This document shows positions 4,461 to 63,171 of a stretch of DNA of 64,000 nucleotides, piece after piece (the stretch's first letter is position 1; each line of letters opens with the position of its first letter). Under the pieces are notes generated by a model. The model ran no database searches. It was not told the origin of the DNA and saw nothing but the letters and a program-made list of their open reading frames with translations. The position numbers were made by a program, and so were the translations under genes. Source of the DNA: Pseudorhodoferax soli (GTDB lineage Bacteria; Pseudomonadota; Gammaproteobacteria; Burkholderiales; Burkholderiaceae_C); NCBI RefSeq assembly GCF_003337555.1, contig NZ_QPJK01000002.1:62001-126000 (forward strand). Direction: 5' to 3'.

Positions 4461-4850
4461 GGATAGGTCCTGTTCAACACATAGAGATCGGCGAATCTAG
4501 AAGAGCCCGAGCTTTTCGTTGCGAACGGATCGGCGCTTGCTTATGCGCTTTTCGGGCTTGCCATCCCGGGGATGTCGGTCGGCGCGCCGTACAAGCGCTT
4601 CGAGTGGTGCCGCACCTCGGGCGCATGCGCCGGATCGGTGGCCTGGTGCATGGCCGTGGCGGGTACCAGCATCCCTGTTCGACAAGGTCGCCATCGGTGC
4701 CGTGACGGCAGCATCGGCCTGCCGCGCAAGCCGCGGCCGGCTGGACGCGATGCCGCCGCGCATATCGACATGCGCTTTCCTTCCTTCGGATCCGGCGGAT
4801 CGGCTGGCACAGTCGCCGGCCGACCGGACCGCACCCTGCACCTTCCTTCC
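4461..4850. other. Divergent intergenic region, metQ / peptide ABC operon
   Basis: This 390-bp region separates two divergent operons and should hold both promoters. It contains an inverted repeat AGCCCGA (4504-4510) / TCGGGCT (4552-4558) whose arms lie 41 bp apart, placed just upstream of metQ. I could not recognise a known methionine riboswitch or a clear sigma-70 promoter. An open frame continues upstream of the binding-protein start, including an in-frame ATG at 4770, but the residues encoded there do not look like protein. Confidence 0.4.
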
Positions 4851-47180: not shown

Positions 47181-49712
47181 TCAGGACGGGCCCAGCCGGG
47201 CGCCGAAGGCCTCCGGCCGCAACGGCCGGTCGAACAGATAGCCCTGCGCGAAAGTGCACTGCAGGTGCTTCAGGCGCTGGGCGATCGCCTCGGTCTCCAC
47301 GCCCTCGGCGAGCACCGACAGGCCCAGGCTCTGCGCCAGCGAGATGATGCCGCGCACGATGGCGGCGTTGTCCGGTTCGTCGATCAAGTCGCAGACGAAG
47401 GAGCGGTCGATCTTGATCTTGTCGAACTTGAAGCGGCGCAGGTAGGCCAGGCTGGAATAGCCGGTGCCGAAATCGTCCATCGAGAGCTTGGTGCCGAGTG
47501 CCTTGAGGCGACGCAGCGTGGCCATGACCGCGTCGCCGTCGTGCAGCAGCACCGTTTCGGTCAGCTCCAGTTCGAGCCGGTCGGGCGGGATGCCGGACGC
47601 CACGAGCGCATCCTCCACCTGCTGCAGCACGACACCGCGCTGGAACTGCCGCGCGGAGAGGTTCACGGCCATCATCAGTTCAGTGTGGCCTGCGTCGTGC
47701 CATTGCCGCAGCTGCAGCGCCGCAGTTTTGAGCACCCAGCCGCCCAGCGCCTCGATCAAGCCGCAGTCCTCGGCGATCGGGATGAACAGGCCGGGCGGCA
47801 CGGCGCCGCGCTCGGGATCGTCCCAGCGGCACAGCGCCTCGGCGCCGACGATGCGGCCGCTGGCCAGGTGCACCAGCGGCTGGTACTCCAAGCGCAGCGC
47901 CTGGTTCTCGATCGCGCGGCGCAGCGAGGCCTCGATCTGCAGCCGGTCGATGGCCGCTTCGTTCATGAGCGCACTGGCGAACTGGTAGGCCGCCCGGCCC
48001 TTGCGCTTGGCTGCGAACATGGCGGCGTCGGCCCGGCCGAACAGCGTGTCGAAGTCGGTCCCGTCGCTGGGGAACATGGCGATGCCGGCAGAGACCGAGA
48101 CGCTCACCGGCAGGTCGCTCAACACCACGGGCTGGCCCAGCAGGTCCATCAGCGCGCGCACCGCATGGGCAGCCTCGGTCGTGCTGTGCACGCCGGACAG
48201 CAGCACCATGAACTCGTCGCCGCTCAAGCGGCCGACCATGGTGCGCTCGCGCGCCTGGCCCAGCAGGCGCGCGCCGATCTCGCGCAGCAGTTGGTCGCCC
48301 ACGCTGTGTCCCAACGAGTCGTTGAGCGTCTTGAAGTTGTCGACGTCGATGACGATCAAGGCCACGCGGTCGTTGCTGAGCTCGGCATGCTTGAGCGCCA
48401 GGCTGGCCTGCAACGTGGCCTGGGCGCGGTTGGGCAGCCCGGTGATCACGTCCTTGCTGGCGAGGTAGGCGATCTTCTCCTCGGCCGCCTTGCGCGAACT
48501 GAGGTCGGAGAAGGCCGCCACGTAGTGCGTGATCTCGTCCGTGCTGCGCTGGCGCAGCGCCGACAGGCTCAGCCATTGCGGGTACACCTCGCCATTGCGG
48601 CGCCGGTTCCAGATCTCGCCGCTCCAGCGGCCCTGCTCGGCCAGCACGGCCCACATCTGCGCGTAGAAGGCCTTGTCGTGCTGGCCGGAGGCCAGAACCC
48701 TGGGGTCGCGGCCCAACACCTCCTCGGCCTGGTAGCCCGTGATCTCGGAGAAGGCCGCGTTGACCATGATGATCCGGTTGTCCGCGTCGGTGATGATGAT
48801 GCCGTCGGTGCTCTGCTCCAGCACGCGGCCGGCCAGCTCCAGCTTGGTGGCCGCGATGCGCTGGTCGGTCACGTCGCGCCGCACCACGAGCAGATGCAGG
48901 CGCTGCCCGCGCCGGCCGAAGGTCGGCACGCGGATCACGTCGTAATAGCGCAGGTTGCCGTGGCCGTCGTCGTTGGCTTCCTGCACATGCGAGAGGCGAC
49001 CGGACTGCCAGGTCGCCTCTTCCGTGAGCGCACTGTGGTTCAGGTCGATGGCCGCCGGGCGGCTCGGTTCGACCACCTCCAGGCTGCTCGAACTGCGGCC
49101 CTCCTGCTCGGCCAGGCCCAGCACGGCGCGCGCAGTCGGGTTGGCAAGCAACCAGCGACCGTCGCCATCCTTGAGGTAGACCATGTCCGGCAAGTGGCGG
49201 AACACCGAGGTCAACAGCTTGTCACGGTCTCGCAGCAGCCTGTGCGACTCCGAATGGGCCGTGATGTCCAAGCCCAGGCACCAGCGCTGGCCGCCCTGCG
49301 CGGCCACGCCCTCGACCGAGGACCAGGCGATGCGCCGCTTGCCGTTGGCCTTGCTGGTCAGCGTCCATTCGAGCGCGCGGAAATGCGGGCCCTGCGTCAG
49401 GATGTCGGCCGTCTTGCGGGCCAGGTACAGGGGCTCGGGGTAGAGCAGCTGCAAGGCACCGGGATTGCCCACGATCTCGGCAGCGCTGTAGCCCGAGCAG
49501 CGCTCGCACTCGCGGTTCCAGTACAGAACGGGCAGCTCGGCGCCGAAGTCCACGCAGCACACCATGACGGGCAGGTGGTCGAACACCGCCACGAGCTCGG
49601 CCGGCATGCCTTGCACGCCTGGCGCTTCGGCGCCCTCGTCGAGGTAAAAGTGGTCCGCCGCCAACGCGCCTTCGATGGCATGTTCGTCCGACGGACTCCC
49701 GCTGCTGCTCAA
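47181..49712 (-). CDS. PAS-GGDEF-EAL cyclic-di-GMP protein
   Basis: This 843-residue cytoplasmic protein has no membrane segment. It contains three PAS-type sensor domains (about 40-150, 165-290 and 305-420), a GGDEF domain (about 430-590) and an EAL domain (about 600-840). The GGDEF signature reads SGDEF, so cyclase activity may be lost or altered. The EAL domain keeps AEALCRW, the NLSARQF asparagine, the LELTET glutamate, DDFGTGYSS and EGVET, and should hydrolyse cyclic di-GMP. The TTG at 49712 is taken as start because GGGAGAACAAGC stands before it; a TTG at 49772 also fits the frame. Confidence 0.9.
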   Translation of the reverse strand: MSSSGSPSDEHAIEGALAADHFYLDEGAEAPGVQGMPAELVAVFDHLPVMVCCVDFGAELPVLYWNRECERCSGYSAAEIVGNPGALQLLYPEPLYLARKTADILTQGPHFRALEWTLTSKANGKRRIAWSSVEGVAAQGGQRWCLGLDITAHSESHRLLRDRDKLLTSVFRHLPDMVYLKDGDGRWLLANPTARAVLGLAEQEGRSSSSLEVVEPSRPAAIDLNHSALTEEATWQSGRLSHVQEANDDGHGNLRYYDVIRVPTFGRRGQRLHLLVVRRDVTDQRIAATKLELAGRVLEQSTDGIIITDADNRIIMVNAAFSEITGYQAEEVLGRDPRVLASGQHDKAFYAQMWAVLAEQGRWSGEIWNRRRNGEVYPQWLSLSALRQRSTDEITHYVAAFSDLSSRKAAEEKIAYLASKDVITGLPNRAQATLQASLALKHAELSNDRVALIVIDVDNFKTLNDSLGHSVGDQLLREIGARLLGQARERTMVGRLSGDEFMVLLSGVHSTTEAAHAVRALMDLLGQPVVLSDLPVSVSVSAGIAMFPSDGTDFDTLFGRADAAMFAAKRKGRAAYQFASALMNEAAIDRLQIEASLRRAIENQALRLEYQPLVHLASGRIVGAEALCRWDDPERGAVPPGLFIPIAEDCGLIEALGGWVLKTAALQLRQWHDAGHTELMMAVNLSARQFQRGVVLQQVEDALVASGIPPDRLELELTETVLLHDGDAVMATLRRLKALGTKLSMDDFGTGYSSLAYLRRFKFDKIKIDRSFVCDLIDEPDNAAIVRGIISLAQSLGLSVLAEGVETEAIAQRLKHLQCTFAQGYLFDRPLRPEAFGARLGPS

Positions 49713-49866
49713 GCTTGTTCTCCCATGTGCCGGCTCGGCCGCGGCCGGTTGACCGCAGGACAGGCGACGCAACGGCGCACACTAGCACATCCGCGCGAGC
49801 CGCAGGCCAAGTCGACCCCGTACTGTTGCAAAAAATGCGCAGCTGTGCGACGCCGATTGCGCGCGG

Positions 49867-49900
49867 AAAAAAAAATGCCTGACCTCGGAAGGTCAGGCAT
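49867..49900 (-). terminator. Terminator of the original tRNA-His gene
   Basis: On the minus strand, the stem ATGCCTGACC / GGTCAGGCAT is followed by nine T residues, 44 nt after the 3' end of the tRNA-His fragment. It is host sequence left beside the attachment site. Confidence 0.9.
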
Positions 49901-49943
49901 CTGGCCGGTCAGCCTGCATCACGCAAGCTTCACGGCAATTCGG

Positions 49944-49993
49944 TGGGGTGACTGATGGGGCTCGAACCCACGACAACCAGAATCACAATCTGG
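49944..49993 (-). pseudogene. 3' half of tRNA-His (GTG anticodon), presumed attL
   Basis: The minus strand from 49993 to 49944 gives the anticodon arm CCAGA-TTGTGAT-TCTGG (anticodon GTG), variable loop, T-arm with GGTTCGAGCC, the acceptor strand CAGTCACC and an encoded CCA. The matching 5' half (expected GGTGACTG, D-arm) is missing: upstream sequence cannot pair with the acceptor strand. Because the 5' side points into the prophage, the simplest reading is that phage integration displaced the 5' half to the far end of the element, where a phage-carried 3' copy would restore the tRNA. Confidence 0.8.
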
Positions 49994-50113
49994 AGACACA
50001 ACCCGCATGCCTACTAACTGCGCGCATGGTACATGGGAATAACTGCTCAATTCCTAGGCGCCTGTCCATGCGCCGTCCTGGCCCTTCAATCCCATGGCCA
50101 AGAGGCCCAGAGC

Positions 50114-50350
50114 CTAGTCCGCAGCGGGCCGCAACCAGTGCACCCAGAGGCCCCGCATCCACGCAAAGGCGTACAGCACCGACACCGCGAAGATCCCCCA
50201 CTGCTCGGCCTTCCAACTGGCCCAGAACCAAAACGGCTGCCCGATGAGCCCGAAGATGCATGCCCACCGGCGCACGCGGTCGCGCCGCTCCTGTGAGCAC
50301 CACGCCGCCAGAGCGCCGAGGATGGGGATCGCGATCTGGTCGATGGGCAT
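50114..50350 (-). CDS. Small phage membrane protein
   Basis: This 78-residue protein has two or three hydrophobic stretches around the conserved-looking core LIGQPFWFWASWKAEQWGIF and ends in a short hydrophilic tail. Proteins of this pattern occur in other prophages and are annotated only as hypothetical. The ATG at 50350 is preceded by GAGAA. It is the gene closest to the attachment site and is separated from the PEP-CTERM gene by a terminator, so it needs its own promoter. Confidence 0.75.
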   Translation of the reverse strand: MPIDQIAIPILGALAAWCSQERRDRVRRWACIFGLIGQPFWFWASWKAEQWGIFAVSVLYAFAWMRGLWVHWLRPAAD

Positions 50351-50404
50351 GGATGGATTCTCAGTGTTCCATGCTGTCGCGCGGCAAGTTGACCACCGAG
50401 AAAT

Positions 50405-50428
50405 GAAAAAACCCGGCCTCGCCGGGTC
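50405..50428 (-). terminator. Terminator of the PEP-CTERM gene
   Basis: On the minus strand, the stem ACCCGGC / GCCGGGT with loop GAG is followed by TTTTTTC, 20 bp after the stop codon. Confidence 0.88.
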
Positions 50429-50447
50429 TTGGCTGTGAGCTGGTCGT

Positions 50448-51236
50448 TCAGGCTTGCTTGCGGCGGCGCAGCACGGCAACGCCCACTAGACCCAGGCCCA
50501 ACAGCGCGAGCGAGCCGGGCTCAGGCACTTGAATGGCTTCACTGGTGATGACCAGGTTGAAGTTGACGTTAGTGGTCTGGAACTCTTGCGTGGTAAAGCC
50601 CATGCAACCCGTGCCGGCGCCCGCTGCAGCGCAAACTTCGGGATCAAGCGTCGCCAGATCCGGAGCGGCGAAGAAGCTCACGAAATACTGAAAGCCGTCG
50701 TAGACGAACTCTGCGTTCAGCGAGCCGGAGATCACGAAGATGTCATCACAAGGGACCGCACTCACGGCCGCACAAGTGCCTGCCTCGTTTGGCGTCTCGG
50801 AGAAGTTGATGGTGTAGGGAGCGGTGAAGCCTTGGAACGGCAGGCCGGAACCGGTCGGTCGCAGCTGCAGTTGGGCGTCGATCTGAGTTGACCGCAGAGA
50901 AACGCTGTTTCCCCCAATATTGCCGTTGTTGATGTGCGTGTAGGTGTTGGCCATCATCGACGCACCGTCGGTGGTCAAGACGCCACTGTTTGGAGTGTTC
51001 GAGATCCGCAGCGCGCTACGGTTCACGCCCACCGAGCCACCCGTCACGCCCCAGCTGATTTCCTGAGGGCCGGCCATGCCATCGCTCGTGGCGCGGCCGG
51101 GCGCATAGGTCGTCGCGCCGACATCGAAGGCGCTGTCCACCTGGAAGTCCCACTGCGTAACTTGAGCCGCCGAAGCAGCGGAGACAGCTGCGAACGCCGC
51201 TGCTGCGACGCCGAGCTTTGCAAACGAGAAAGACAT
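50448..51236 (-). CDS. THxN-type PEP-CTERM sorting-domain protein (prophage cargo)
   Basis: This 262-residue exported protein has a signal peptide (residues 1-24, cleavage near ASAAQ), a beta-rich middle part with the THIN motif (about residue 100) of the THxN family, and a C-terminal sorting tail: VPEPGS, a hydrophobic helix and RRRK. In the PEP-CTERM system a membrane exosortase cuts this tail and the protein reaches the surface or matrix, usually with exopolysaccharide or floc formation. AAGGAG precedes the ATG. The gene is less GC-rich than its neighbours and forms a separate unit with its own terminator, the marks of a phage cargo gene (moron). No exosortase is in the window, so the host must supply it. 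Confidence 0.9.
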   Translation of the reverse strand: MSFSFAKLGVAAAAFAAVSAASAAQVTQWDFQVDSAFDVGATTYAPGRATSDGMAGPQEISWGVTGGSVGVNRSALRISNTPNSGVLTTDGASMMANTYTHINNGNIGGNSVSLRSTQIDAQLQLRPTGSGLPFQGFTAPYTINFSETPNEAGTCAAVSAVPCDDIFVISGSLNAEFVYDGFQYFVSFFAAPDLATLDPEVCAAAGAGTGCMGFTTQEFQTTNVNFNLVITSEAIQVPEPGSLALLGLGLVGVAVLRRRKQA

Positions 51237-51537
51237 TGAGTGCTCCTTGTGTGGACGCCCCCGAACTGGCGGCCTTTTAGCGCAAGCACAGTCAATGCCT
51301 ATCGTCAAAAAGCAAATCGGATCAATCGCCTTTGTTTCATTTAAACGAGCAGATCCCTGAATTTGTTAAATGATTCGACATTTAAACAAACCTAATGTCC
51401 TACGACAGCGCACGGTTTCAGCCTACATACTCCGCAAATGAGCGAAAGCCGCTGATCAGATGTTTGGTTTATGTACGTAGGCTAATGATTACATTTGACC
51501 GAAAAATTACGATGTGAGCATGCAGGTACAAGTGCGG
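51237..51537 (-). promoter_or_regulatory. AT-rich upstream region of the PEP-CTERM gene with operator-like repeats
   Basis: This 301-bp region has no gene and is strikingly AT-rich for the genome. CATTTAAAC occurs as a direct repeat at 51338-51346 and 51379-51387 (41 bp apart, about four helical turns). The second copy is the right arm of a dyad, TGTTAAATG-N6-CATTTAAACA (51364-51388). These look like protein-binding sites controlling the cargo gene; no promoter could be placed with certainty. Confidence 0.5.
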
Positions 51538-51648
51538 CTACGCCTGAGAGATGACGCACGAGGCCGCCGGCAGCAGCACCAGCAACACCACGGATACCAC
51601 GCGGCCCAGTGCCACCCGCAGGCGGCGGCGGAAGCGGTCGCTCTTCAT
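51538..51648 (-). CDS. 36-residue membrane peptide at the end of the lysis cluster
   Basis: A 36-codon ORF begins MKSDRFRRRLRVALGR and continues as one hydrophobic helix ending near PAASC. Its ATG overlaps the stop of the preceding phage gene as ATGA, the same coupling used throughout this cluster, which argues that it is translated. The basic n-region and hydrophobic helix suit an inner-membrane peptide. Function unknown. Confidence 0.5.
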   Translation of the reverse strand: MKSDRFRRRLRVALGRVVSVVLLVLLPAASCVISQA

Positions 51649-51938
51649 GACAACGGCGCCGGACCGGTTTCGAAGTCCCGCGCCTCGCCCTTGCGCTCAC
51701 TGCGGATCAGCTCGATGCCACGCGCGCGCAACGCATCGCGCAGCGCCAGCCACTCGCGGCGCGGGATCTCCCCTTTGCCGCTGTCGTTCAGGAAGCCGCT
51801 GATAAATGCCTTGTTCCCGCCGAGCACTTGAACCTGGGCCACGCTGGCGAAGTCGCTGCGGGCTTCAAAGCTGTCTCCGGGCAGGTAGCGCCGGGCCGTC
51901 ATGGACGTGATCTCAAGGTGCCACGTCATCGCGGCCAT
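51645..51938 (-). CDS. Phage protein of unknown function
   Basis: This 97-residue soluble protein starts MAAMTWHLEITS and has an alternating beta pattern, then GEIPRREWLALRDALRARGIELIRSER, which suggests an alpha-beta fold. The start at 51938 overlaps the end of the Rz1-like gene by 13 bp; a second ATG lies at 51929. I do not recognise the family. Its position after the spanins suggests a late-gene accessory role. Confidence 0.7.
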   Translation of the reverse strand: MAAMTWHLEITSMTARRYLPGDSFEARSDFASVAQVQVLGGNKAFISGFLNDSGKGEIPRREWLALRDALRARGIELIRSERKGEARDFETGPAPLS

Positions 51939-52174
51939 GCCTCCACCAGGCCGGCGCGCTTGGCGCGCTCGCATCCGTACGCCTTGATCCACTCGACCGA
52001 CCAGACCGCCAGCTGCTGTGCGGTGGCACCCTCGGCCAGGTCAGCCGGCGTCGGGCACGGCATCGTCAGCACCACAGGCGGCGGGTCGATCTTCGCGGGC
52101 ACAGCGCGCGGCGTCGTTGAGCAGGCGGACAGCATCAGCAGGCACAGGACAGGCAGCCATCGGTTGGGTGACAC
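51926..52174 (-). CDS. Rz1-like outer-membrane spanin lipoprotein
   Basis: This 82-residue protein has a signal peptide with lipobox LMLSAC (cysteine about 18) and a short proline-containing periplasmic part, as in o-spanins. It starts with GTG at 52174 inside the Rz-like gene in another frame, the classic overlapping Rz/Rz1 arrangement. Together with Rz it should fuse inner and outer membranes in the last step of lysis. At 82 residues it is a little longer than lambda Rz1. Confidence 0.8.
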   Translation of the reverse strand: MSPNRWLPVLCLLMLSACSTTPRAVPAKIDPPPVVLTMPCPTPADLAEGATAQQLAVWSVEWIKAYGCERAKRAGLVEAWPR

Positions 52175-52430
52175 GTTCGATCTCCTTGACGGTCTTGGTG
52201 ATGAAGCGGTCCCTGTAGACCGTCTGAACGACGACGCGCTCTTCCACTGTGGCGGCCCTGCCCCGGTTGGACTCGCGCTGCAGCTCGGTCGCCCGCTCGC
52301 CGGCCAGTTGGTACTCGGCCAGGGCTTGGCGGGCCTGCGCGGTCTGCGTGCGCTGGTGCAGCAGCAGGCCGGCCAGCACCAGGGCGGCGATGCCGAGCGC
52401 GGCGATCGCCGGGTTTCGGATGTCGGCCAT
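52041..52430 (-). CDS. Rz-like inner-membrane spanin
   Basis: This 129-residue protein has an N-terminal membrane helix (about 8-24) followed by a coiled-coil periplasmic domain rich in Q, A, E and R (about 26-90), the make-up of an i-spanin. The C-terminal part holds three cysteines. The ATG overlaps the stop of the preceding gene (ATGA). Rz1 starts within it in another frame, which supports the assignment. Confidence 0.82.
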   Translation of the reverse strand: MADIRNPAIAALGIAALVLAGLLLHQRTQTAQARQALAEYQLAGERATELQRESNRGRAATVEERVVVQTVYRDRFITKTVKEIERVTQPMAACPVPADAVRLLNDAARCAREDRPAACGADDAVPDAG

Positions 52431-52729
52431 CAATCCCTCCAGATCTCGCGGAGTGAGCCGTACAGGTAGGTGCCCAGCAGGCCGGTCGGCACGCCGATCG
52501 CCAGCAGTGCGGCCACCAGGAGGGCCAGGGCGAACATAGCGGGAGCCTTGACCAGCAGCACCAGGGTGAGCAGGACACGCCATGCCAGCCGGCGCGCCGG
52601 CGTGGTGGCGCGGCGGTCGGCGAAGTGGCCGACCCGCTGACCGAGCGCGGCCGTGGCCAGGTTCCACCAGATCCACAGTGGCGCGCGCGCGCGGCGGCCG
52701 AGCGCCACGAGCCAGGGCGGCGTCTTCAT
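52430..52729 (-). CDS. Phage membrane protein in the lysis cluster (second holin candidate)
   Basis: This 99-residue protein has a basic N-terminal half and one or two hydrophobic helices (about 51-68 and 70-92), separated by a short turn with lysine. It could be an additional holin, an antiholin or another lysis regulator. Both ends overlap neighbours by 1-4 bp (endolysin upstream, Rz downstream). I do not recognise the family. Confidence 0.7.
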   Translation of the reverse strand: MKTPPWLVALGRRARAPLWIWWNLATAALGQRVGHFADRRATTPARRLAWRVLLTLVLLVKAPAMFALALLVAALLAIGVPTGLLGTYLYGSLREIWRD

Positions 52730-53322
52730 GGCGCCAGCAGGCCGGCCGAGAAATGGCCGTCCCTGCCCCACTCCGCGCACAGCTCGCGTGTGGTGTCGCG
52801 GCGATCGACCAGGCCTGGCAACTTCGCGCGCTGGCCGGCGACCGTGCCGTAGACCCATCGCGGCATCTGCGCGCAGGCACCGGTCAGGTCGCCGGCATTG
52901 GCCAGCCGCTGAATGGTTGTGCCGTCCAGGGCCGACGGCCCCAGGTTGAACACCATGTCGATGAACGACGCACGCACCCACGGGTTGTAGGCGTCCCAGT
53001 GCCGCAGCCTGGCCTTGGCCTGCTTCTCGGCATCGCGGTAGCGCGGAAACTCGAGGCGGTGGCAGTCCTCGCGCGTGTAGACGCGGCCAGCCACCACGTC
53101 GGGGCCGGTGATGCCGTTGCAGACCGTGAGCGGCTGACCTTTCCCGAGTCGGTCCACGTACGGCGTGCCGATGCGCCGGCCGCTGCTCTCGAAGTGCGAG
53201 CCCAGCTCCATGGCCAGCAGCACCTCGGGGCTGGGCTGCTGGCTGGCCACGTAGGCGGTGCCGCTGGCCAACGCCACGCTGGCGGCCAGGGCCAGCAGCC
53301 TGTTGCGCAGGCCGGCGTTCAA
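52726..53322 (-). CDS. SAR-type endolysin (GH24 lysozyme)
   Basis: This 198-residue muramidase cleaves host peptidoglycan. The GH24 triad can be placed at E45 (HFESSGRR), D57 (PYVDRLG) and T66 (PLTVCNG). The N-terminal helix (about 9-27), weakly hydrophobic and rich in A, S and G, is a signal-arrest-release segment, so it would be held inactive in the membrane until the holin depolarises it. The TTG at 53322 is taken as start because GGGAGAAGACGA stands before it and TTGA overlaps the holin stop. Confidence 0.88.
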   Translation of the reverse strand: MNAGLRNRLLALAASVALASGTAYVASQQPSPEVLLAMELGSHFESSGRRIGTPYVDRLGKGQPLTVCNGITGPDVVAGRVYTREDCHRLEFPRYRDAEKQAKARLRHWDAYNPWVRASFIDMVFNLGPSALDGTTIQRLANAGDLTGACAQMPRWVYGTVAGQRAKLPGLVDRRDTTRELCAEWGRDGHFSAGLLAP

Positions 53323-53693
53323 TCGTCTTCTCCCAGCCCGCCGAAGTTCGTGACCGGGTTGCTGCCGTTGCGCAGGTACTCCATGCGCAGCTGGTGCAGC
53401 TGCTCCGCACGCGCATCGGCCTTCGCCCGCGCAATGGCGTCCTCGGCCCTTGCCTGGGCCTCCATCCGGTCTGCCTTGCGCCGGTAGTGCCAGTTGACCA
53501 GGAAGCCACCGACCGCGACGACCAGGCCGGCCCATGCCACCAAGTCGCTGGACATCGCCATGCCACCAAGCGACACGCCGGCGCCGGTGTATGTGGCCTT
53601 CGATGCGACCGTGGCCGCGGCCGCTTCTGCCTCCACGGTGCGCGGCAAAAGAAACGCCAGTGCCGCAGCGATGGCGGCCAACAACTTCTTCAT
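53319..53693 (-). CDS. Holin-like phage membrane protein
   Basis: This 124-residue protein has an N-terminal hydrophobic segment (about 3-18), a second one (about 52-72) and a long charged, helical C-terminus rich in A, E, R and K. The layout fits a class II holin, which forms membrane lesions and triggers lysis. AAAGG lies ahead of the ATG. It is the first gene after a terminator and directly precedes the endolysin, the usual place of a holin. Confidence 0.72.
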   Translation of the reverse strand: MKKLLAAIAAALAFLLPRTVEAEAAAATVASKATYTGAGVSLGGMAMSSDLVAWAGLVVAVGGFLVNWHYRRKADRMEAQARAEDAIARAKADARAEQLHQLRMEYLRNGSNPVTNFGGLGEDD

Positions 53694-53710
53694 GGGAGCC
53701 TTTCGGGCAA

Positions 53711-53735
53711 AAGAAAGCCGCCTCGTTGGGCGGCT
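53711..53735 (-). terminator. Terminator between tail and lysis modules
   Basis: On the minus strand, AGCCGCCC / GGCGGCT forms a short hairpin followed by TTCTTTT, between the DUF4376 gene and the holin-like gene. Confidence 0.75.
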
Positions 53736-53754
53736 GGAAGGGAACCTGCGTGAT

Positions 53755-54345
53755 CTACTCGGAAGGCCAGGCCACGGCGGCCACGCTGGCCTCGGTCGCG
53801 TCTTCGGCGTAGATGGCAGCGCGCAGGGTGCGCGACACCTGGTGCAGATGGTCGGCGTGCTGCGCGAGCGCCACGAGCATGCCCACCATTTGCGAGGCAT
53901 CCAGCGCCAGGACGGTGTTGTCCTGGCAAGTCCAGTCGATGCTGAACGGTGCGCCGATGGCCAGCGCGGCCTGAGCGGCCGACGTGGCACCAGTGATGCG
54001 CAGCGCACTCTCGGCGTCGCTGTCGACCACCTTGCCCATGTACGGGAACCCGGCAGTCTCCAGCCGGTTGCGCTCGGCCTTGATCTCGGCCCACTTCGCG
54101 TCCTGCGCCAGCGCCAGAGCCGACACGCCGGGCACCACCCAAGCGCGCATCTCGGCATCTCGCACGTGCCGGAAGCTGGGTGCAGGCCCCAGATCCAGCA
54201 CCTCGCCGTCCAGGTACAGGCACTGCGCGGGATCGCACAGCGCCTCGACCTCGGCGACCGTGCCGCCCATCTGCGCATGCGGCTCACCGCCGCCCGACAT
54301 GGCCAGCAGCACCAAGCCGCCATCGTGCTCAACCCAGTAGCTCAT
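53755..54345 (-). CDS. DUF4376-domain phage tail-associated protein
   Basis: This 196-residue protein has a C-terminal DUF4376-like region (from about residue 80: EIKAERNRLETAGFPYMGKVVDSDAESALRI and a helical end), a domain often found at the end of phage tail-fibre or fibre-assembly proteins. The N-terminus (MSYWVEHDGGLVLL) resembles short tail-fibre assembly proteins. It overlaps the giant tail protein by 4 bp, so it is probably a fibre or tip accessory. Confidence 0.8.
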   Translation of the reverse strand: MSYWVEHDGGLVLLAMSGGGEPHAQMGGTVAEVEALCDPAQCLYLDGEVLDLGPAPSFRHVRDAEMRAWVVPGVSALALAQDAKWAEIKAERNRLETAGFPYMGKVVDSDAESALRITGATSAAQAALAIGAPFSIDWTCQDNTVLALDASQMVGMLVALAQHADHLHQVSRTLRAAIYAEDATEASVAAVAWPSE

Positions 54346-57300
54346 CGCTGCCCTCCCGACAAAGTGATCGAGGCCTGTACGCCCTGCGTGGTGCCGGTGC
54401 TGGAGATGACGCGCACCGAGTAGCCGTTCGAGCCGGACACGGGCGCGTCGTCGAACGCCGTGATCGGGATGGCCTGGCTGCTGTTGGAACTGCCGCCGTT
54501 GGACTGGCCAGCGGAAGACGAGCCGATCTGCGCACCATCGCGGTCCCGGTAGATGCCCAGGGTCAGGAACGCACCCGCCGCCTCCGAGATGAAGAACGAG
54601 ACGTTCACCGTGGCGGTGATGTTCACGCCCGAGCTGCCTGCCGCCATGGGGATCGCCCGGGTCACGAGCACCGTGCCGGCCTGCGGGTTGTTGAAGGAGC
54701 CGCCACGAGCGTACAAACCGGAGGTGATCGATCCGCCCCGCAGGTTGATCGTGTCGACGGCATTGATGGCGTTGGCCGTCAGCGTGCCGCTGAAGGTGCC
54801 GTCCGACCCGTTCAGCTTGCAGTTCGTCTCCATCACGCCCGTGGCCATGTCGAACACGAAGTAGCGCCCGCTTGGACCGGACATCGCCAGGCCACCAGTG
54901 TGCATGTGCATGCTGTAGCCGTTGTTCGTCATGTAGATCTGGCGCGTGTCCAGATCGATCGTCATCTTGCCGTCGCTGGACACCAGCCGGCCATTGACGA
55001 TCAGGCCCAGGTTCGGGTTGATCGCCGAGAGCGCGGTTGTGCGAATGCCCCGCTCGTCGATGATGGTCCCCTGCCCCGATGCCGAGTAGTCCGTCGGCAC
55101 CGTCTGGTAGGGGCTGGCCACCGCCAGCATCGGGCGGGCCAACCAGGCGTAGCTGTTGGCCGGCGTCGAGCCTGGCAGCGTAGGGAACTTGCGGAAGAAC
55201 AGCCGCATCGAGACCGCGTTGGCCGGCGCGGTGCCGAAGCCGAACACGCGCTGATAGCCTGACAGCGCTGCCCCGCCGCCCATACCAGTCGAGATGTTTG
55301 AAGCCACCTCGGCGATAGTCGCGCCGGCTGCATCGTAGAACCCCAGCAACAGCATGCACGCGCAACGGTGCGACGCGACGGGTGCCGAGAACTGGTAGCG
55401 CTTGCCGGCCTCGCACGGGATAACCTCAGTGACCCACTGCGCCACCAGGTTCTGGCCCTGGAACCAGTCGTTCGGCTGGTAGATGCAGAACGCATCTCCG
55501 CCGGCAGGCTTCCAATCGTTGCTCGGGTAGTTCAGGTGCCCACTGGTGTCGGCTCCGAGGTTGCCCTGGCTGAACAGCCACCCCAAGGTCGTCACGAGCG
55601 TGGAGTTTGGCAACAGGTTGGCGCTGACCGCCACCCGAACCGACAAGGCATCGACGGTCTCGCCCTTGAGGTGGCGGAACTCGATTTCGGTGGAGCGAAT
55701 GTGCTCCGCGCGTAGCTGGTCCACACCGACCATGCGCGCCTGAATCGTGCCGTCGATGTACATATTGCCGGCGAAGCCGAACGACGGCGAGCCGTCGATG
55801 GTGCCAACCACCAACGGATACTTCACACCAGCGCCAGTCGGCAGCGCCCAGGCGAAGCGGTCGGAAAGCACGATGAAATCGGTTTGCTGACCGTCGTTGC
55901 CGAAGATCAGGCCGCCGACCTTCGGGCCGTTCGCACTGACCACCCGCACGCCCCACCGGTCCTCGTAGGCCGGCAGTTCGTCAAGCTGCTCCAGCACGTC
56001 GTCCAGTCCCTCTTGCAGCTGCGCGATGGCCTCGCTGATGTGCGGCAAGGTGGTCAGTTCCACGTAGCCCGGGGCGCCACGGTTGCCGCCGCGGTCAATG
56101 GCCGTGACCCAGAACAGGTAGGTGCCAGCCGTGGCCGGCGTGTGCACGTAGCCGATGGCGTCGGTCAGGGTCAGCACGGGAGCGTCCGCCAAGAGGGGCC
56201 CAACCCGCACTTCATAGCCCTGCAGCGGCTGCGTGGTGCGCGACGGCGTCCAGCGCAGTTCCACCTGGTCGATCCACACGTCGCCGGTGACGATCGGCTG
56301 CGCCGGTGGCAGGATGACCAGCCCGGTGCTCGCAGGCTCCGACGTGTCGCCCGCCGAGTTGACGTGCACGGCGTAGAACATCAGCGTGCCAGCTTGCAGC
56401 CAAGCCAGGTTGCAGGTGTTGGCCTTGCCTTCGAAGACGGGCGACGCAGTCGCCCACGACCCGCCAGCCAGCCCCATGCGGATTTGCGTGGACGCGTAGT
56501 CGATGGAGTCGACATCCTGCGGCGTGTTCCAGCGCAGCACCACCCCATTCGTCTCGACCGACGCGACCAGTCCGACCACGGCCCCCACCACCACGCTCGG
56601 GTCGGTGAAGATCGCCGAGGCGATCGTGCCCATGCGCCCCAACCCATCGAAGGGCCGGACCTCGACCGACCACGTCTGGTCGGATGGAACGCGCCAGTTC
56701 AAGCGCGTGCCGTAGACGTTGCTGTCGATCAGCACCAGGGGTTGGCCAGCCGGAGCCGCCCAGACCTGGGCATGGTCGTAGTTGCCGGTCACGTCCCAGG
56801 TGGCCGACAGCTCGTGCTCCCAGCCCGCACCGACCTTCACCCGGGCCCGCGTGATCCGGAGCGCGCTCGCGACCGGCAGGTTCGCCATGAGCGACGATCC
56901 GTTCGGCGCGGGCACGTAGTTGCCGTTGATGACGTAGTCCCAGAACTCGGGGCCTTCGGGCACGCAGGAGATGCGCGCGCCCTTCAGATCCGCCTCCGGC
57001 TCCATGCTGACCACGCGCACGCGGTAGCCTGGCGTGGGCTTGAAGTCGTAGCACCACAGCGTGTCGTGCGCCGGGTCGCCCTCGGTCGCGCCGGGCAGCG
57101 GCAGCCCAGCCGGCCACGGGTCCGCCAGCGTCACTTGGTCGGAAGCAGTAGCCAGCGTCTCGACCTGGAACACCCGATAGTCGCGGTAGCCGGGCAGGCG
57201 AACGCCGATGAAGGCCTGCGCCATCGGCGGCACCGTCTCGTCGAGCTGCAGCACCACCTTGCCGGCGACGGTCTGTGCCGACACCAGGCGACCGCCGTAG

Positions 57301-59261
57301 CCCCACTGCGTCAGGTCGTGGCTGATGGACAGCAGCGACAGCCGCCGGTAGTCGAGGTGCTCGATGTCGGCCGTGTAGCCGATCGTCTTGAACTGGTACA
57401 GGCTCTGCGCGAGGTGGTAGCGCGCCATGATGGCCGCGTGCGCCTCGCTGGTGACACCCTCGCCCGTGATGCGGGCCGGGTTGAGCATCGTGGTCACGCC
57501 AGGGGCGGCCACGCGCAGCGTCTGCGTTTCCCAGTTGCGGTCGCGATCCAGGTACTGGTATTCGATGCCGTCGGCGGCGTTGCTCAGGCTGTAGGAGACC
57601 TCGAAGGACGCCTTGAGCATGTTGGCCATGTTCGCCACGCCGGACAGCGGCTGCCCGCTGGAGACGAACACCGCCGTGGGCCGGCTGCCGTCCGTCCAGC
57701 TGAACTCGCCCATGCCGGCCAGCGCGACCTCCTGGCAGAACTGCCCCAGCGACATGGCATCGGTCACCCACCGGTCGTAGGTGTAGCCGTTGGCCGTGCA
57801 GTGGAGCATGAAGGCCTTCAAGCCCTCGATGTCGATCTGCGCGTCGGGCAGACCGAAGCCGAACTGCAGCTCGCCGTTGGCGTAGACGCCGCGCATGGTC
57901 TGCAGCAGGATGGCACCGGGGTTCGACAGACCGTTCTCGCGCGTCGTCGCCGTGGCCCAGGCCGAGCCGTTCCAGATGGGCATCGGCCGGGCGCGGTAGG
58001 TCGCGCGCACCGTGTCCAGGCTGCCGGAGATCTGGCCCGTGGCCTTGATCTTGATGCCGATCCGGCCCCAGTCGCTGTAGTCGGTGGTGTCGGTCTGGAT
58101 GGTCCGCAGGACGTTCCAGCCGATCTTGCACTGGTCCTTTCCCTCTCCCTGGTTCCACGTCGGGGCACCCAGCCGCACGCGGACTTCGTACTGGCCCTGC
58201 GCGACCTGCAACGTGATGGTCCGGCGCAGCGCATCCGCTGACGCGTTGGTCAGCGTCTGCGCCGGCGCCGGCGTCCAGTCGGACACGCCGACGGGGCGGG
58301 TCTCGATGAAGAGCGGCACGCTGTTGGTCTGCGTCTGGCCCTTGCCGCCGATGTCGTACAGCTGGCCCTCGAAGTCGAACTGCAGCGCGATCGCGCCCGG
58401 CGAACTTGTACGCACGACCCAGGCACCGTCGTTCTCCAGCTCGGCGCCGGTGATCGTGTCGGCGTTGCTGTACAGCGGGATGTCCTGGTTGGCCATGCCA
58501 GGGAACCCGCTGTAGAACACGTTCACATCGGTGTATCCGCTGATCGGCGTGTCGCCGACGGCGAGTTCCGACGCGCTGTGCACGTTGACCCCGCCCAGCA
58601 GGATCAGGCTCAGGTACTGCTCATCCCCTTCGAACCAGGTGTAGGCATTGCTTGCAACATCAGGGGTGACGCGCATCTCGCCCCAAAGAGTCGGCGGCGG
58701 CTGGTAAGGGCGCGGACTGTTGCGCTGCCCGTTCAAGCTGTAGATGGCGCGGGCTGCGGCCGGGCTCGACGCACTGGGCACCTTGGGTGCCAGCACCTTG
58801 TTGATGAGCATGGAGCCAGCGATCATCACGCCCGCCTGAATGGCAGCGATCGACGTGGCCGCGCCAGCCGCGACGAAAGTGCCACCGGCTGCACCGTAGA
58901 TGCCTGTGGCGATGCCGAGCGAGAAGTACGACAGCACCGCGATGGCGATGATGGCCACGACTTGCTTGCCGGCCGTGGCGCGGCAGGCGATGAGCATGCC
59001 GTGCTTGGGGAAGGTCCTGGCCCACATGGCCTGCGGCACGGTCGCCCCGGCGATGCTCACCGTCCAGGCGCCGGATCGGATGCCGGGCACATGGCGCTCG
59101 AGGAAGACCTCCAGCGTCTCCCCGGGCAGCAGGTTGGCCGGAACGTTGCGCTGCCCGTCCAGGGTGGCAAAGTTCGGCGTGATGACCAGGCGGCCGTTGG
59201 CGTCCAGCAGCTCGGCGGCCACGCCATCGACTGCGGCCAACTCGGCGCGATTCAGTTCCAT
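54342..59261 (-). CDS. Tail-tip host-specificity protein, J-like
   Basis: This 1639-residue protein is the central tip protein of a long tail, the counterpart of lambda J, and should contact the host receptor. An N-terminal hub region includes a hydrophobic stretch (about 100-155) that may cross the membrane on DNA entry. Fibronectin-III-like repeats lie at about 830-1090, then a coiled coil (LQEGLDDVLEQLDELP) and the conserved YIDGTIQARMVGVDQLRAEHI region of J-type proteins near 1240. The last 350 residues are the likely receptor-binding, variable part. It overlaps the NlpC/P60 gene by 10 bp. Confidence 0.92.
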   Translation of the reverse strand: MELNRAELAAVDGVAAELLDANGRLVITPNFATLDGQRNVPANLLPGETLEVFLERHVPGIRSGAWTVSIAGATVPQAMWARTFPKHGMLIACRATAGKQVVAIIAIAVLSYFSLGIATGIYGAAGGTFVAAGAATSIAAIQAGVMIAGSMLINKVLAPKVPSASSPAAARAIYSLNGQRNSPRPYQPPPTLWGEMRVTPDVASNAYTWFEGDEQYLSLILLGGVNVHSASELAVGDTPISGYTDVNVFYSGFPGMANQDIPLYSNADTITGAELENDGAWVVRTSSPGAIALQFDFEGQLYDIGGKGQTQTNSVPLFIETRPVGVSDWTPAPAQTLTNASADALRRTITLQVAQGQYEVRVRLGAPTWNQGEGKDQCKIGWNVLRTIQTDTTDYSDWGRIGIKIKATGQISGSLDTVRATYRARPMPIWNGSAWATATTRENGLSNPGAILLQTMRGVYANGELQFGFGLPDAQIDIEGLKAFMLHCTANGYTYDRWVTDAMSLGQFCQEVALAGMGEFSWTDGSRPTAVFVSSGQPLSGVANMANMLKASFEVSYSLSNAADGIEYQYLDRDRNWETQTLRVAAPGVTTMLNPARITGEGVTSEAHAAIMARYHLAQSLYQFKTIGYTADIEHLDYRRLSLLSISHDLTQWGYGGRLVSAQTVAGKVVLQLDETVPPMAQAFIGVRLPGYRDYRVFQVETLATASDQVTLADPWPAGLPLPGATEGDPAHDTLWCYDFKPTPGYRVRVVSMEPEADLKGARISCVPEGPEFWDYVINGNYVPAPNGSSLMANLPVASALRITRARVKVGAGWEHELSATWDVTGNYDHAQVWAAPAGQPLVLIDSNVYGTRLNWRVPSDQTWSVEVRPFDGLGRMGTIASAIFTDPSVVVGAVVGLVASVETNGVVLRWNTPQDVDSIDYASTQIRMGLAGGSWATASPVFEGKANTCNLAWLQAGTLMFYAVHVNSAGDTSEPASTGLVILPPAQPIVTGDVWIDQVELRWTPSRTTQPLQGYEVRVGPLLADAPVLTLTDAIGYVHTPATAGTYLFWVTAIDRGGNRGAPGYVELTTLPHISEAIAQLQEGLDDVLEQLDELPAYEDRWGVRVVSANGPKVGGLIFGNDGQQTDFIVLSDRFAWALPTGAGVKYPLVVGTIDGSPSFGFAGNMYIDGTIQARMVGVDQLRAEHIRSTEIEFRHLKGETVDALSVRVAVSANLLPNSTLVTTLGWLFSQGNLGADTSGHLNYPSNDWKPAGGDAFCIYQPNDWFQGQNLVAQWVTEVIPCEAGKRYQFSAPVASHRCACMLLLGFYDAAGATIAEVASNISTGMGGGAALSGYQRVFGFGTAPANAVSMRLFFRKFPTLPGSTPANSYAWLARPMLAVASPYQTVPTDYSASGQGTIIDERGIRTTALSAINPNLGLIVNGRLVSSDGKMTIDLDTRQIYMTNNGYSMHMHTGGLAMSGPSGRYFVFDMATGVMETNCKLNGSDGTFSGTLTANAINAVDTINLRGGSITSGLYARGGSFNNPQAGTVLVTRAIPMAAGSSGVNITATVNVSFFISEAAGAFLTLGIYRDRDGAQIGSSSAGQSNGGSSNSSQAIPITAFDDAPVSGSNGYSVRVISSTGTTQGVQASITLSGGQR

Positions 59262-60110: not shown

Positions 60111-60463
60111 CGCAGGTACTGCAGGGTGACATCGCGCTTGGCCAGCGCGTAGCCCGACGTGACGGGCACCAGCTTGCCGATGTCGCCGCCCTTAAAGCGC
60201 ACGCTCAGCAGCTGGTTCGTGCGCGGGTTGAGCCAGTCGAAAAAGCCGATGCGCTTGATCGTCTGGAAATACCAGGTCTCAAAGCTGATCGTGTCCTGCT
60301 GGGCATAGAACATCAGCGATGCGGGAATGTCCACGATCACCCTGCTCTGCCCGACCCGCATCTTGGCCAGGCCGCGCTCCATTTCGGAGACGACCACGCC
60401 CGGGTCGAACTCCTCGCCTGCCCCCTCCAGCAGGATGCAGACGTAGTCCGGTAGTGCTGCCAT
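60107..60463 (-). CDS. Tail-tip protein of unknown family
   Basis: This 118-residue protein lies between the tape measure and the DUF1833 gene, the position of lambda M. It has a beta-rich C-terminal half with DTISFETWYFQTIKRIGFFDWLNP and RFKGGDIGKLVPV. The ATG at 60463 shares a base with the tape-measure stop (TGATG); a GTG directly upstream is possible. Assignment as a minor tail protein rests on position. Confidence 0.78.
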   Translation of the reverse strand: MAALPDYVCILLEGAGEEFDPGVVVSEMERGLAKMRVGQSRVIVDIPASLMFYAQQDTISFETWYFQTIKRIGFFDWLNPRTNQLLSVRFKGGDIGKLVPVTSGYALAKRDVTLQYLR

Positions 60464-63171
60464 CACATCCCCATCTTTCCGCGCGCACGCATGGCTTGGC
60501 CGATGCTGCCGCTGTCGGTTGCAAGTTCGCCGGCGATCTCATCCTTGATCGCCTTCTTGATCGTCACGATCAGGTCCATGCCGCCGTTGGCGTTGGGCCG
60601 CTTTTCGGCGGTCACCGCGGCGCCCGCTTGGTTGTAGATGTTCACGTCGCCAAAGCCGCCGCGAACCGCTGGAACAAATGGGGCGCTGCTGGATCCGCCC
60701 ACCCCGCCAGCGGCATGGCTGCGCCCGCTGCGGATCGTTGACACCAGCTGCGCGAAGCCCTGCGGCCCGCCGATGCGCGCCATGTCGCCCTGGTTCAGGA
60801 TGCCCTCGCCCTTGTGGACGATGCCGGCCGGCTGGTACTTGCCACCAGGGCCGGTGTATCCGCCCTCGGCCCAGCCGCCACCGAACCAGCTCATGACCCC
60901 CGACAGCAGGCTGCCGAAGGCTCCGCTGCCGCCCGACCCACCCGACGCCCCCTTGGCCCCGAACAGCGAGTTCACGAGCTGCTGCCCGAGCTGCTTGCTG
61001 ATCAGATTGTTGAACTCGTTGAACACGGACTTGCCGAAGTCCTTGAGCGAGTCCTTGGCGCTCTTGGCGCCGCCCGCCAGGTCGGAGAAGAGGTTGGAGA
61101 ACGAGCCCTCGAAGGTTGAGCGCAGCTTGTCGCCGAGTGGATCCAGGCTGGCGTTCAACTCCTCCATCTGCAGCTTGACGCGGCCAAAGGCCTGCTGCTG
61201 CTCAGGTGTGAGGAGACCGAGAGCCTGCAGCTGCACGAACTTGTCGATCTCCTGCTGCAGCAGCCCGATGCGCTCGCGCCGCGCGGCGCCAGTGCGCTGC
61301 AGGGCCTCCATCTCGCTGATCGTGCCGGCCTCACGGTCGATGGCGATGCGCCTTTCGGCGTCGCTCAGGTCGCCCTGGATCAGCGAGAACTGCTGCGTGA
61401 GCTGATTCAGCTGCGCCTGTGCAACAGTCGATTCCTTGAGCTTGGCGAGCGTGTCGAGGCCCTGCTGGTTACCGTTCGCCGTGAACAGCTTCTTCAGCCC
61501 CTCATTGGCCTTGTCGAAGTTCAGCGCCGCCGCCTCCGCGGTCTGGCCGCGCAGCTCCATCAGCCGGGTGTTCACGTCCTGCAGCGAGTCGGCCAGGTCC
61601 TTGGCGGCCTGCTTCTGCTTCTCGTCCAGCTCGATGGCGGCCAAGCCGGCGTCCTGCTGCACCTTGGCGCGCTTGGCGACCAGGTCGGCGATCTTGCCCT
61701 CGGCGTCGGCCCGGTCGGTCTTCTTGTCCGCGCTGGCCCGGTACTTCTGCAGGGCGGCGATCTGGGCGTCGTAGGCCTTGACCTGGCCGGCCGTGGCCTC
61801 CTCCAGGATGGCGCGCTGCGCATCGTAGAAGCCCTGAACAGACAGCAGCCCTTGGCCGTTGTACAGATCCAGCATGCGGTTGCGGTCGGCCATGAGGCCG
61901 GTCTGCTCTTGCACCAGGCGCTCGAATTCCTTCAGCTCGTTGCTCAGCAGGTTCTTGGTGGCATCGTCGCCCTTGACGGCGATGCGCCCCGGCTTCGGTC
62001 GCGGCTTCGCGGGGTCGGCTGCCGGGGCCGGTGCGTTGTTCGCGTCCCGGATCATGCCGGCCTGGGTCTTGCGCAGCGTTTCCAGCTCTGCGGACAGGCT
62101 GTTGACCTCCTCGGTCGCTTTTTTGAATCCGCCCGTACCGGGGTAAGACCCACCAAGCCGTTCCTGGGCCTTCGCGAGCTTTCCACCGACCTCGTCGATC
62201 TTCTCGCCCAACCGCTCGATCGGGTCGTCCGCACCATGCAGCGCGCGGGCAATGCTGATGCCCAGTCCCGTTCCAACCTTGCCAAGGAAATTGACGATGC
62301 CGGCGCCTGCCTTGGTGGTGTACTCCAGGATGAGTGCCAGGCCGGAAACGAAGGTGTTGAATCCTTGCTTCGCCTCCTGCGAATTGAGCGTCTCCGAGAG
62401 GCTACGCACGCCCTCGGTCGCACCCTGCAAACTTCCGTCGTCGCCCGTCATCAGGCTGTTCAGGCTGTGCTGCAGCTCGGTGACTGCGCCGCCGAAGGTG
62501 TTGCGCGCGGCCTCTGCCGCGCCGCCGTACGACGACTTGAGCGCGTCCAGGATGATCTTCTGCGCCTCGGCTGTGCGGCCGGTGTCCTGCAGGCGCTCGA
62601 CCAGCTTCTTCTGGTCCTCGCTGAAGCGGAAACCCTGCTTGGACAGAGCGGTCAGGCCCTCGGAAGGAACGTCCAGCGCCTTGCCAACGGTCTCGGCCGC
62701 CTGCTCCACCGTCATGCCCAGGCGCGCGGCCATGTCGACCGCGGCCTGCAGCGCTTCGGGAAACTCGTTCCCGACGACGTTGGTGTAGGCCAGCAGGCGC
62801 GTCTGCGCGCGGTTGATGTCGCCGTCGCTGAAGACGCCGGCCATGGCCGAGGCCATCTCGTTGAGCTCGTCGGCGGAGTAGCCGGCCGCCTCCTTCGTGC
62901 TCTTGAGCACCGCGACCAACTGGGCCTGCTCGGCCTGGGCATCTTTGGATTCCTGGATGAACTTACCGAAGGTCGAGCCGATCGTGATTCCGGCGAAGCC
63001 CGCAGCGATCGCGCTGCCCAGCGTGGACCACTCGCGCTCGATCTCCTTCTTGCGCTTGGACAGCTCGCGCGCGGTGCGCGCCGCCTGGCGCTCAGCCTGC
63101 GTGGCGCCCTGCGTGAAGCCGCCGATCTTCATGATCAAGTCGAGCGTCAACGTGCCAAGGCTCCTGCTCAC
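60463..63171 (-). CDS. Tail tape measure protein
   Basis: This 902-residue protein sets tail length and is ejected with the DNA. It is mostly alpha-helical with long coiled coils (about 20-45, 330-560, 570-720), a TMP repeat-like region near residues 95-210 (VDMAARLGMTVEQAAETVGKAL) and a glycine-rich C-terminus (about 775-850). By the usual ratio of about 1.5 angstrom per residue the tail would be around 135 nm. The start is GTG at 63171 with GAAGGTGG upstream. Confidence 0.92.
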   Translation of the reverse strand: MSRSLGTLTLDLIMKIGGFTQGATQAERQAARTARELSKRKKEIEREWSTLGSAIAAGFAGITIGSTFGKFIQESKDAQAEQAQLVAVLKSTKEAAGYSADELNEMASAMAGVFSDGDINRAQTRLLAYTNVVGNEFPEALQAAVDMAARLGMTVEQAAETVGKALDVPSEGLTALSKQGFRFSEDQKKLVERLQDTGRTAEAQKIILDALKSSYGGAAEAARNTFGGAVTELQHSLNSLMTGDDGSLQGATEGVRSLSETLNSQEAKQGFNTFVSGLALILEYTTKAGAGIVNFLGKVGTGLGISIARALHGADDPIERLGEKIDEVGGKLAKAQERLGGSYPGTGGFKKATEEVNSLSAELETLRKTQAGMIRDANNAPAPAADPAKPRPKPGRIAVKGDDATKNLLSNELKEFERLVQEQTGLMADRNRMLDLYNGQGLLSVQGFYDAQRAILEEATAGQVKAYDAQIAALQKYRASADKKTDRADAEGKIADLVAKRAKVQQDAGLAAIELDEKQKQAAKDLADSLQDVNTRLMELRGQTAEAAALNFDKANEGLKKLFTANGNQQGLDTLAKLKESTVAQAQLNQLTQQFSLIQGDLSDAERRIAIDREAGTISEMEALQRTGAARRERIGLLQQEIDKFVQLQALGLLTPEQQQAFGRVKLQMEELNASLDPLGDKLRSTFEGSFSNLFSDLAGGAKSAKDSLKDFGKSVFNEFNNLISKQLGQQLVNSLFGAKGASGGSGGSGAFGSLLSGVMSWFGGGWAEGGYTGPGGKYQPAGIVHKGEGILNQGDMARIGGPQGFAQLVSTIRSGRSHAAGGVGGSSSAPFVPAVRGGFGDVNIYNQAGAAVTAEKRPNANGGMDLIVTIKKAIKDEIAGELATDSGSIGQAMRARGKMGM

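Follow-up and report, generated by a model that had tools for sequence, protein, structure and literature searches.

A prophage of Pseudorhodoferax soli carries, near attL, a gene for a PEP-CTERM protein with an upstream region of the host exosortase-regulon type: a putative case of lysogenic conversion

The window analysed here, a stretch of 64,000 nucleotides, corresponds to C2:62001-126000 of the 8.16-Mb genome of Pseudorhodoferax soli. On its minus strand, at 50448-51236, lies a gene for a 262-aa PEP-CTERM protein of the THxN family. The protein matches the THxN model NF038125 with 252.1 bits (cut-off 85, E 5.6e-75) over profile positions 5-246 of 246. Its sorting tail (50454-50531, minus strand), composed of VPEPGS, a hydrophobic helix and RRRK and reading VPEPGSLALLGLGLVGVAVLRRRKQA, scores above the cut-offs of both PF07589 (34.1 vs. 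20.7 bits) and TIGR02595 (32.5 vs. 16 bits). A signal-peptide region, residues 1-24 (51165-51236, minus strand), was judged by eye from the translation without a predictor. A preceding sequence-only reading had described a secreted THxN protein with this tail behind an AT-rich upstream region, and all of this was found at the place given there; that the gene is oriented on the minus strand had not been stated. The same reading had proposed a terminator. A terminator-like hairpin with a 10-pair stem, a 3-nt loop and a T-rich tail does lie 3' of the gene (50408-50430, minus strand), so its position was rightly given, but such sites are no commoner than chance, as two occur within 49700-52200 compared to a mean of 2.3 in shuffled sequences. 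The scan extended to 52200, and from the gene up to this limit no terminator-like site was detected on the minus strand. The model for the flocculation protein PepA, NF033554, reached only 47 bits, which is under its equivalog cut-off of 80, and covered residues 187-261 only. The predicted structure of the protein is poor (mean pLDDT 49.7) and thus unsuited to a fold search, and we know of no function for THxN proteins. Plasmid records yielded no relatives of the protein, and a query with the 26-aa tail alone gave zero matches, perhaps due to masking as low complexity.

The gene lies about 455 bp from attL of a 48.9-kb prophage that is integrated in tRNA-His and has a 51-bp att core at both ends. 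The attL core, which is the 3' part of tRNA-His, occupies 49943-49993 of the window (C2:111943-111993) and recurs identically at C2:160839-160889 within an intact tRNA-His. In the relative G002, contig C39 aligned with 92% identity to both flanks when the core was included, the left one at positions 15234-8297 and the right one at 8347-3185; since these two alignments overlap by exactly the 51-bp core, G002:C39 represents the empty site. The duplicated core and the empty site bear out the earlier claim that the gene is inside a prophage. An attL to the right of the gene had been named as an observation that would refute this claim, and attL was found to its left. Between the att cores there are an integrase gene adjoining attR at the right end, tail and lysis genes, and additional phage-like genes recognized by gene calling and by matches to other prophages. 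Lysis and tail genes are encoded in the same direction as the PEP-CTERM gene, on the minus strand: an endolysin (52726-53322, phrog_7, 1.3e-26), a holin (53319-53693, limits from the gene call; PF16082, 1.7e-18, at residues 236-295 of a longer ORF 53319-54332), a tail (fibre) protein (53755-54345, phrog_2837, 7.9e-25), the central tail fibre J (54342-59261, phrog_31, 5.6e-127) and the tail tape measure protein (60463-63150, phrog_24, 2.5e-35). Two large prophage ORFs, C2:125229-126896, which begins at window position 63229, and C2:130155-132236, have PGTKKVYADRAAFL in common and perhaps represent a duplicated tail protein. Directly outside attL, at 47181-49772, there is a gene for a PAS-GGDEF-EAL protein.

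Between attL and the PEP-CTERM gene, an ORF for a 78-aa phage membrane protein is located at 50114-50350 (minus strand), matching phrog_22312 (“membrane protein”, moron category) with 2.2e-8. This ORF was matched in 38 of 399 genomes of the family, the own genome counted, and is accompanied by a PEP-CTERM gene at just 2 of 30 loci for which 1.5 kb upstream were scanned. A tRNA-Arg(cct) is close to the ORF at three of 30 loci, and the ORF might be a marker of prophage ends. In the examined stretches of five related prophages (G005:C9, G005:C27, G002:C40, G003:C2, and the second stretch of G004:C99) the PEP-CTERM gene of the window was unmatched.

The closest relative of the gene is a copy in another species, G002:C36, with 88% identity. 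The window gene groups with this copy (support 100/99) and apart from the syntenic host orthologue G000:C8. Comparison of the pair yielded a dN of 0.076, a dS of 0.785 and a dN/dS of 0.10; judged by these substitution rates, the lineage of the gene is under purifying selection. A tRNA-Arg is found in G002:C36 at a distance of 1.7-2.8 kb from the 78-aa phage ORF and the PEP-CTERM gene. Since both genes are together there as well as in the window prophage, the cassette has a different tRNA site in each of the two species. The phage ORF of G002:C36 has two in-frame stops and its PEP-CTERM gene is open, and from the state of the two reading frames the latter seems to have survived the decay of the phage gene next to it. 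In the 3 kb from the G002:C36 gene to the contig end, no gene for a phage structural protein was recognized.

The sequence-only reading had suggested looking for an exosortase in the host, and the lack of any would have spoken against it. A profile search of the genome identified XrtA with 355.5 bits (cut-off 208; EpsI domain 118.5), as well as a second exosortase, XrtQ (358.5 bits), and the regulatory proteins PrsR (737.1 bits) and PrsK (671.6 bits), all above cut-off. The search for other PEP-CTERM proteins in the host, likewise suggested there, gave 31 matches above cut-off, the window gene counted. Six THxN genes are present in the genome, again including that of the window, and the five full-length paralogues are 45-69% identical to the window protein. 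The nearest of them (69%) is situated at a chromosomal locus that is common to four genomes of the genus, whereby the assignment of the compared genomes to the genus is an inference. The idea that THxN genes generally adjoin tRNA genes was dropped, because inspection by eye revealed no phage-like genes in the vicinity of the copies close to tRNA-Ala (G005:C1) and tRNA-Ser (G001:C6) and because four copies (69-71%) occupy one syntenic chromosomal locus. Phage integrases in G002:C17:1938-8412, G004:C99:82694-86610 and G005:C9:53620-55325 lie near one chromosomal locus, dusB-purH as read from the proteins, and in two of these three stretches a chromosomal THxN gene is found within a few kb. Within G004:C132:323947-346344, two THxN copies with a mutual dN/dS of about 0.08 flank an integrase-bearing stretch. 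No att sites could be derived from this pair, 22 kb apart, since all shared repeats of ≥18 nt in the compared stretch are within the genes; the copies are perhaps duplicates parted by an island.

The sequence-only reading had called the locus a complete transcription unit, and to this we can add two upstream elements. A sigma-54-like -24/-12 element, AGGCATTGACTGTGC, with the form GG-N10-GC is located at 51286-51300 (minus strand) and agrees with the consensus at 7 of 11 positions (p 0.15 alone). A PrsR-type box, TGTCGAATCATTTAACA, is located at 51364-51380 (minus strand), 80 nt upstream of the -24 element from start to start, so that 63 nt separate box (51380-51364) and element (51300-51286). 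No sigma-70 promoter was found for the gene (0 vs. 0.7 in shuffled sequences). The GGCAT and TGC of the -24/-12 element are kept in the G002 copy. The upstream regions of 30 of the 31 host matches, that of the window gene among them, were compared with sets resampled from a first-order chain; elements with at least 8 of 11 positions occurred in 12 of the 30 regions, whereas 3.3 were expected and the maximum of 50 resampled sets was 7. A Gibbs sampler was applied to the 130 nt upstream in the nine host genes scoring ≥9, leaving out the phage genes. It returned de novo a 17-nt motif, YGTCGAA-N4-TTGACA-like, whose start precedes the -24 element by 80 to 110 nt. According to the accessible portion of Haft et al. 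(2006; PMC1569441), PEP-CTERM genes have a two-motif promoter with a 17-nt motif ending in TTTACA, a spacer averaging 62.8 nt and a sigma-54 site. The de novo motif agrees with motif 1 of that study as far as its accessible portion allows, whereby the comparison was made only by length, TTTACA end and GG/GC, without the logos.

The box matched with p 0.027 for the window gene and p 0.033 for the G002 copy, in both at 80 nt. Because it stands at the right spacing, the -24/-12 element becomes persuasive, which with its p of 0.15 it would not be alone. Six genomes of the genus together contain the composite pattern of box and -24/-12 element 22 times and its reversed control not once. In 18 of the 22 cases it stands directly before a PEP-CTERM ORF; of the remaining four, three look like a single coding stretch that recurs, and the last stands before a secreted protein lacking the tail. 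The window's own genome has six occurrences, five of them before PEP-CTERM genes, the prophage gene being one. None of 20000 first-order resamplings of the window upstream region contained the pattern. It has to be considered that the pattern was composed after the window site had been seen and is loose enough to include it; the independent part of the result is its specificity, 18 of 22. In stretch L268:1582-2235 (G005:C3) the pattern precedes a gene whose 217-aa product looks secreted and has no PEP-CTERM tail. Altogether, the window gene fits the PrsR/RpoN regulon arrangement of PEP-CTERM genes, from which PrsR- and RpoN-dependent transcription is inferred.

Other prophages had been proposed as a further place to search for such tails, and PEP-CTERM genes were indeed found in a related prophage (G005:C9), in the viral contig L157 and in many IMG/VR contigs. 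The G005:C9 prophage is integrated at tRNA-Arg, comprises 52 kb with a 26-bp core at both ends and contains an unrelated PEP-CTERM gene for a 307-aa protein at G005:C9:34783-35706 (L124:14783-15706), whose neighbours are on the opposite strand. This gene is preceded by a near-consensus sigma-54 element, TGGCACACGAGTTGC (10 of 11 positions, p 0.002), and has no convincing box (p 0.17). The encoded protein also occurs in the IMG/VR contig IMGVR_UViG_2643221867_000001. L157 shows 72-96% protein identity to five early-region genes of the window prophage and has two PEP-CTERM genes, at 4385-5029 and 7171-7866. The first of these has neither box nor -24/-12 element. For the L157 PEP-CTERM gene that has a box, it lies 82 nt upstream of the -24 element, and 0 of 300 resamplings matched as well. 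The PEP-CTERM gene at G000:C13:124914-125483 (L130) borders a prophage-like region, close to a tape-measure-like gene, and could not be placed inside or outside of this region.

A scan of the viral contigs (IMG/VR) with the pattern VPEP[GA]..AL.[GA] yielded at least 120 stretches (L136-L255). Of 121 pattern matches listed, 115 passed a loose tail test, at least two of which (L170, L181) look false by eye, and the 83 proteins of more than 80 aa among the matches listed fell into 33 clusters. One family has at least 25 members in the 120 stretches listed. For a survey of gene neighbours, 75 long ones were chosen from the 135 listed, with PHROGs results from 25 of 196 families. They included terminase matches (at least seven to phrog_2, five to phrog_9 and five to phrog_979) and at least six matches to the portal phrog_156, two to tail sheath and two to major head proteins. 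Immediate neighbours include a portal gene directly after the PEP-CTERM gene in L144, head-closure/connector genes in L150 and a major head protein gene in L214. As packaging and head genes adjoin them, PEP-CTERM genes thus do occur within phage genomes. Queries with five PEP-CTERM proteins found no relative in 50,697 phage records (INPHARED), and THxN relatives were not found in the viral contigs by protein or alignment query.

Upstream regions of the viral PEP-CTERM genes were analysed for 96 of the 115 listed, which had at least 180 nt upstream; the starts of these genes were taken from our own gene calling, and related contigs were counted separately. In 17 of the 96, a -24/-12 element reached ≥9 of 11 positions, compared to a mean of 1.6 and a maximum of 5 in 40 resampled sets, and in seven it reached ≥10, compared to a mean of 0.1 and a maximum of 1. 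The other 79 of the 96 listed have no strong element, and wiring to the host regulon is therefore not general. The full composite promoter precedes PEP-CTERM ORFs in at least five viral contigs (L157, L183, L251, L295, L379). When the viral contigs were scanned for the composite pattern, a regular expression found a PEP-CTERM ORF downstream in 4 of 119 matches listed and in 2 of 120 listed for a scrambled control; checking the listed matches by eye left three (L157, L295, L379) vs. none in the control. L295 contains an anti-repressor and a RusA-like resolvase gene, and its PEP-CTERM gene is on the strand opposite to the neighbours; L379 contains an excisionase-like gene. The PEP-CTERM proteins of L183, L251 and L295, all with the composite box/-24/-12 pattern, are alike by eye (MxKKxL...SAGYxxY).

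Surface-protein morons are known from phage lambda, in which lom and bor, each a single gene close to a late module, change the lysogen surface. The window gene is likewise a single gene near a late module; the lambda products are an outer-membrane protein and a lipoprotein, whereas its product is an exosortase substrate by sequence. In staphylococci, SasX is a prophage-borne LPXTG sortase substrate. As far as the available accounts of it go, SasX resembles the present case in that a phage provides its host with a protein anchored by the host's own sorting transpeptidase, but it depends on a Gram-positive sortase and the cell wall, whereas here it would be a Gram-negative exosortase, EPS and a PrsR/RpoN-type promoter like that of the host. 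The THxN proteins of NF038125 share with the window protein the full-length match, the conserved core and the PEP-CTERM tail, and differ from it in that the latter is prophage-borne. The available portion of work on Aquincola tertiaricarbonis (PMC9850573) reports that transcription of pepA needs RpoN1, that PepA overexpression lowers soluble and raises bound EPS, and that PepA binds EPS to cells and makes flocs. PepA is thus, like the window product, a PEP-CTERM protein with an RpoN-type promoter; in contrast, its gene is chromosomal beside prsT according to the same partial source (PMC9850573), whereas the window gene is prophage-borne and its product below the NF033554 cut-off. The sequence-only reading had supposed that such a phage-borne system was undescribed, and within the open-access literature searched this still holds: no description of phage-borne PEP-CTERM proteins was found among the titles and abstract openings listed there or in the accessible portions of PMC4886054, PMC12642866 and PMC8546572, while subscription journals and bioRxiv were mostly outside the scope.

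Taking these data together, we consider it likely that the gene is a moron of a temperate phage, located near attL and encoding an exosortase substrate, and that it acts in lysogenic conversion via the host regulon, with expression, sorting and effect being inferred. In the lysogen, the gene would be activated by PrsR and RpoN of the host at times when host PEP-CTERM proteins are produced. Its product would be exported by Sec and cut by the host XrtA at the PEP motif, and would end up within or on the EPS layer, where it would alter the surface of the lysogen. Since an intact, tagged gene is combined with a control region of the host PEP-CTERM type, the virus may change the surface of its host. 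The most likely benefit would be a changed EPS coat that holds the cells in flocs or biofilm and/or hinders the adsorption of other phages; which of these, floc retention or exclusion of other phages, is the gain for the phage cannot be distinguished from sequence. In kind, the case is best read as lysogenic conversion by a surface-protein moron, and what would be new is the use of the host exosortase together with, for this gene and several others of phages, a promoter of the host exosortase-regulon type.

It might be that the gene is a mere passenger, i.e. a host THxN gene that was caught with its own promoter by imprecise excision and is useless to the phage. The many THxN genes in the host genus, some of them beside integrases, and the host-type promoter would fit this explanation. 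However, it does not readily account for the dN/dS of 0.10, although this selection could partly date from a chromosomal phase, nor for the G002 gene that is open beside a decayed phage ORF, the cassette identical in kind at two tRNA sites in two species, or the unrelated PEP-CTERM genes of related phages, so that we regard it as unlikely. Still less room is left for a gene or assembly outside the phage context, i.e. a chromosomal gene beyond the prophage or an assembly fault. Nothing was found in its favour; a position outside the prophage is ruled out by the duplicated att core and the empty site, a phage ORF lies on the attL side, and gene and phage ORF stand side by side again in another assembly, which makes this explanation extremely improbable.

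Surface-protein morons often act by superinfection exclusion, and the sorted protein could mask or change a phage receptor or the EPS, with effects on biofilm being secondary. The position of the gene is typical of morons, and the great diversity of the sampled viral PEP-CTERM genes (33 clusters from 83 proteins) would agree with such a role, but there are no adsorption data and no known receptor, and the protein looks like a chromosomal THxN protein and not like a member of a phage-specific family. Exclusion as the main function thus remains a tentative possibility. It could also be that the gene is a late gene with a role in lysis or release that is transcribed by read-through from the lysis operon. 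Read-through at lysis is possible because the gene follows the late genes, endolysin and holin among them, on one and the same strand. No terminator-like site was found there from the gene up to 52200, the limit of the scan, and some viral PEP-CTERM genes are within structural modules (L144, L150, L214). Yet the PrsR/-24/-12 arrangement is host-type, and in both G005:C9 and L295 the neighbours of the PEP-CTERM gene are encoded on the other strand; a late function is therefore rather improbable.

Beyond the single locus, we lean towards the view that exosortase substrates are common in phages of Gram-negative bacteria that make EPS, and that a good share of these phages have placed them under the RpoN regulon of the host, in some cases the PrsR/RpoN regulon, whereby they would add proteins whenever the host builds its matrix. 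If conversion of the lysogen via the host exosortase is true, it would be lysogenic conversion through protein sorting and the Gram-negative counterpart of prophage-borne sortase substrates. PEP-CTERM proteins and exosortase have been tied to floc and matrix formation (PMC9850573), and most PEP-CTERM proteins are not known to have a defined role. If phages carry PEP-CTERM genes, some of them on the regulator of the host, prophages would become a direct means of altering flocculation, the composition of the matrix and the adsorption of phages. This offers a testable reason for the large and patchy PEP-CTERM repertoires, and deletions of single genes in lysogens would provide an assay for PEP-CTERM function.
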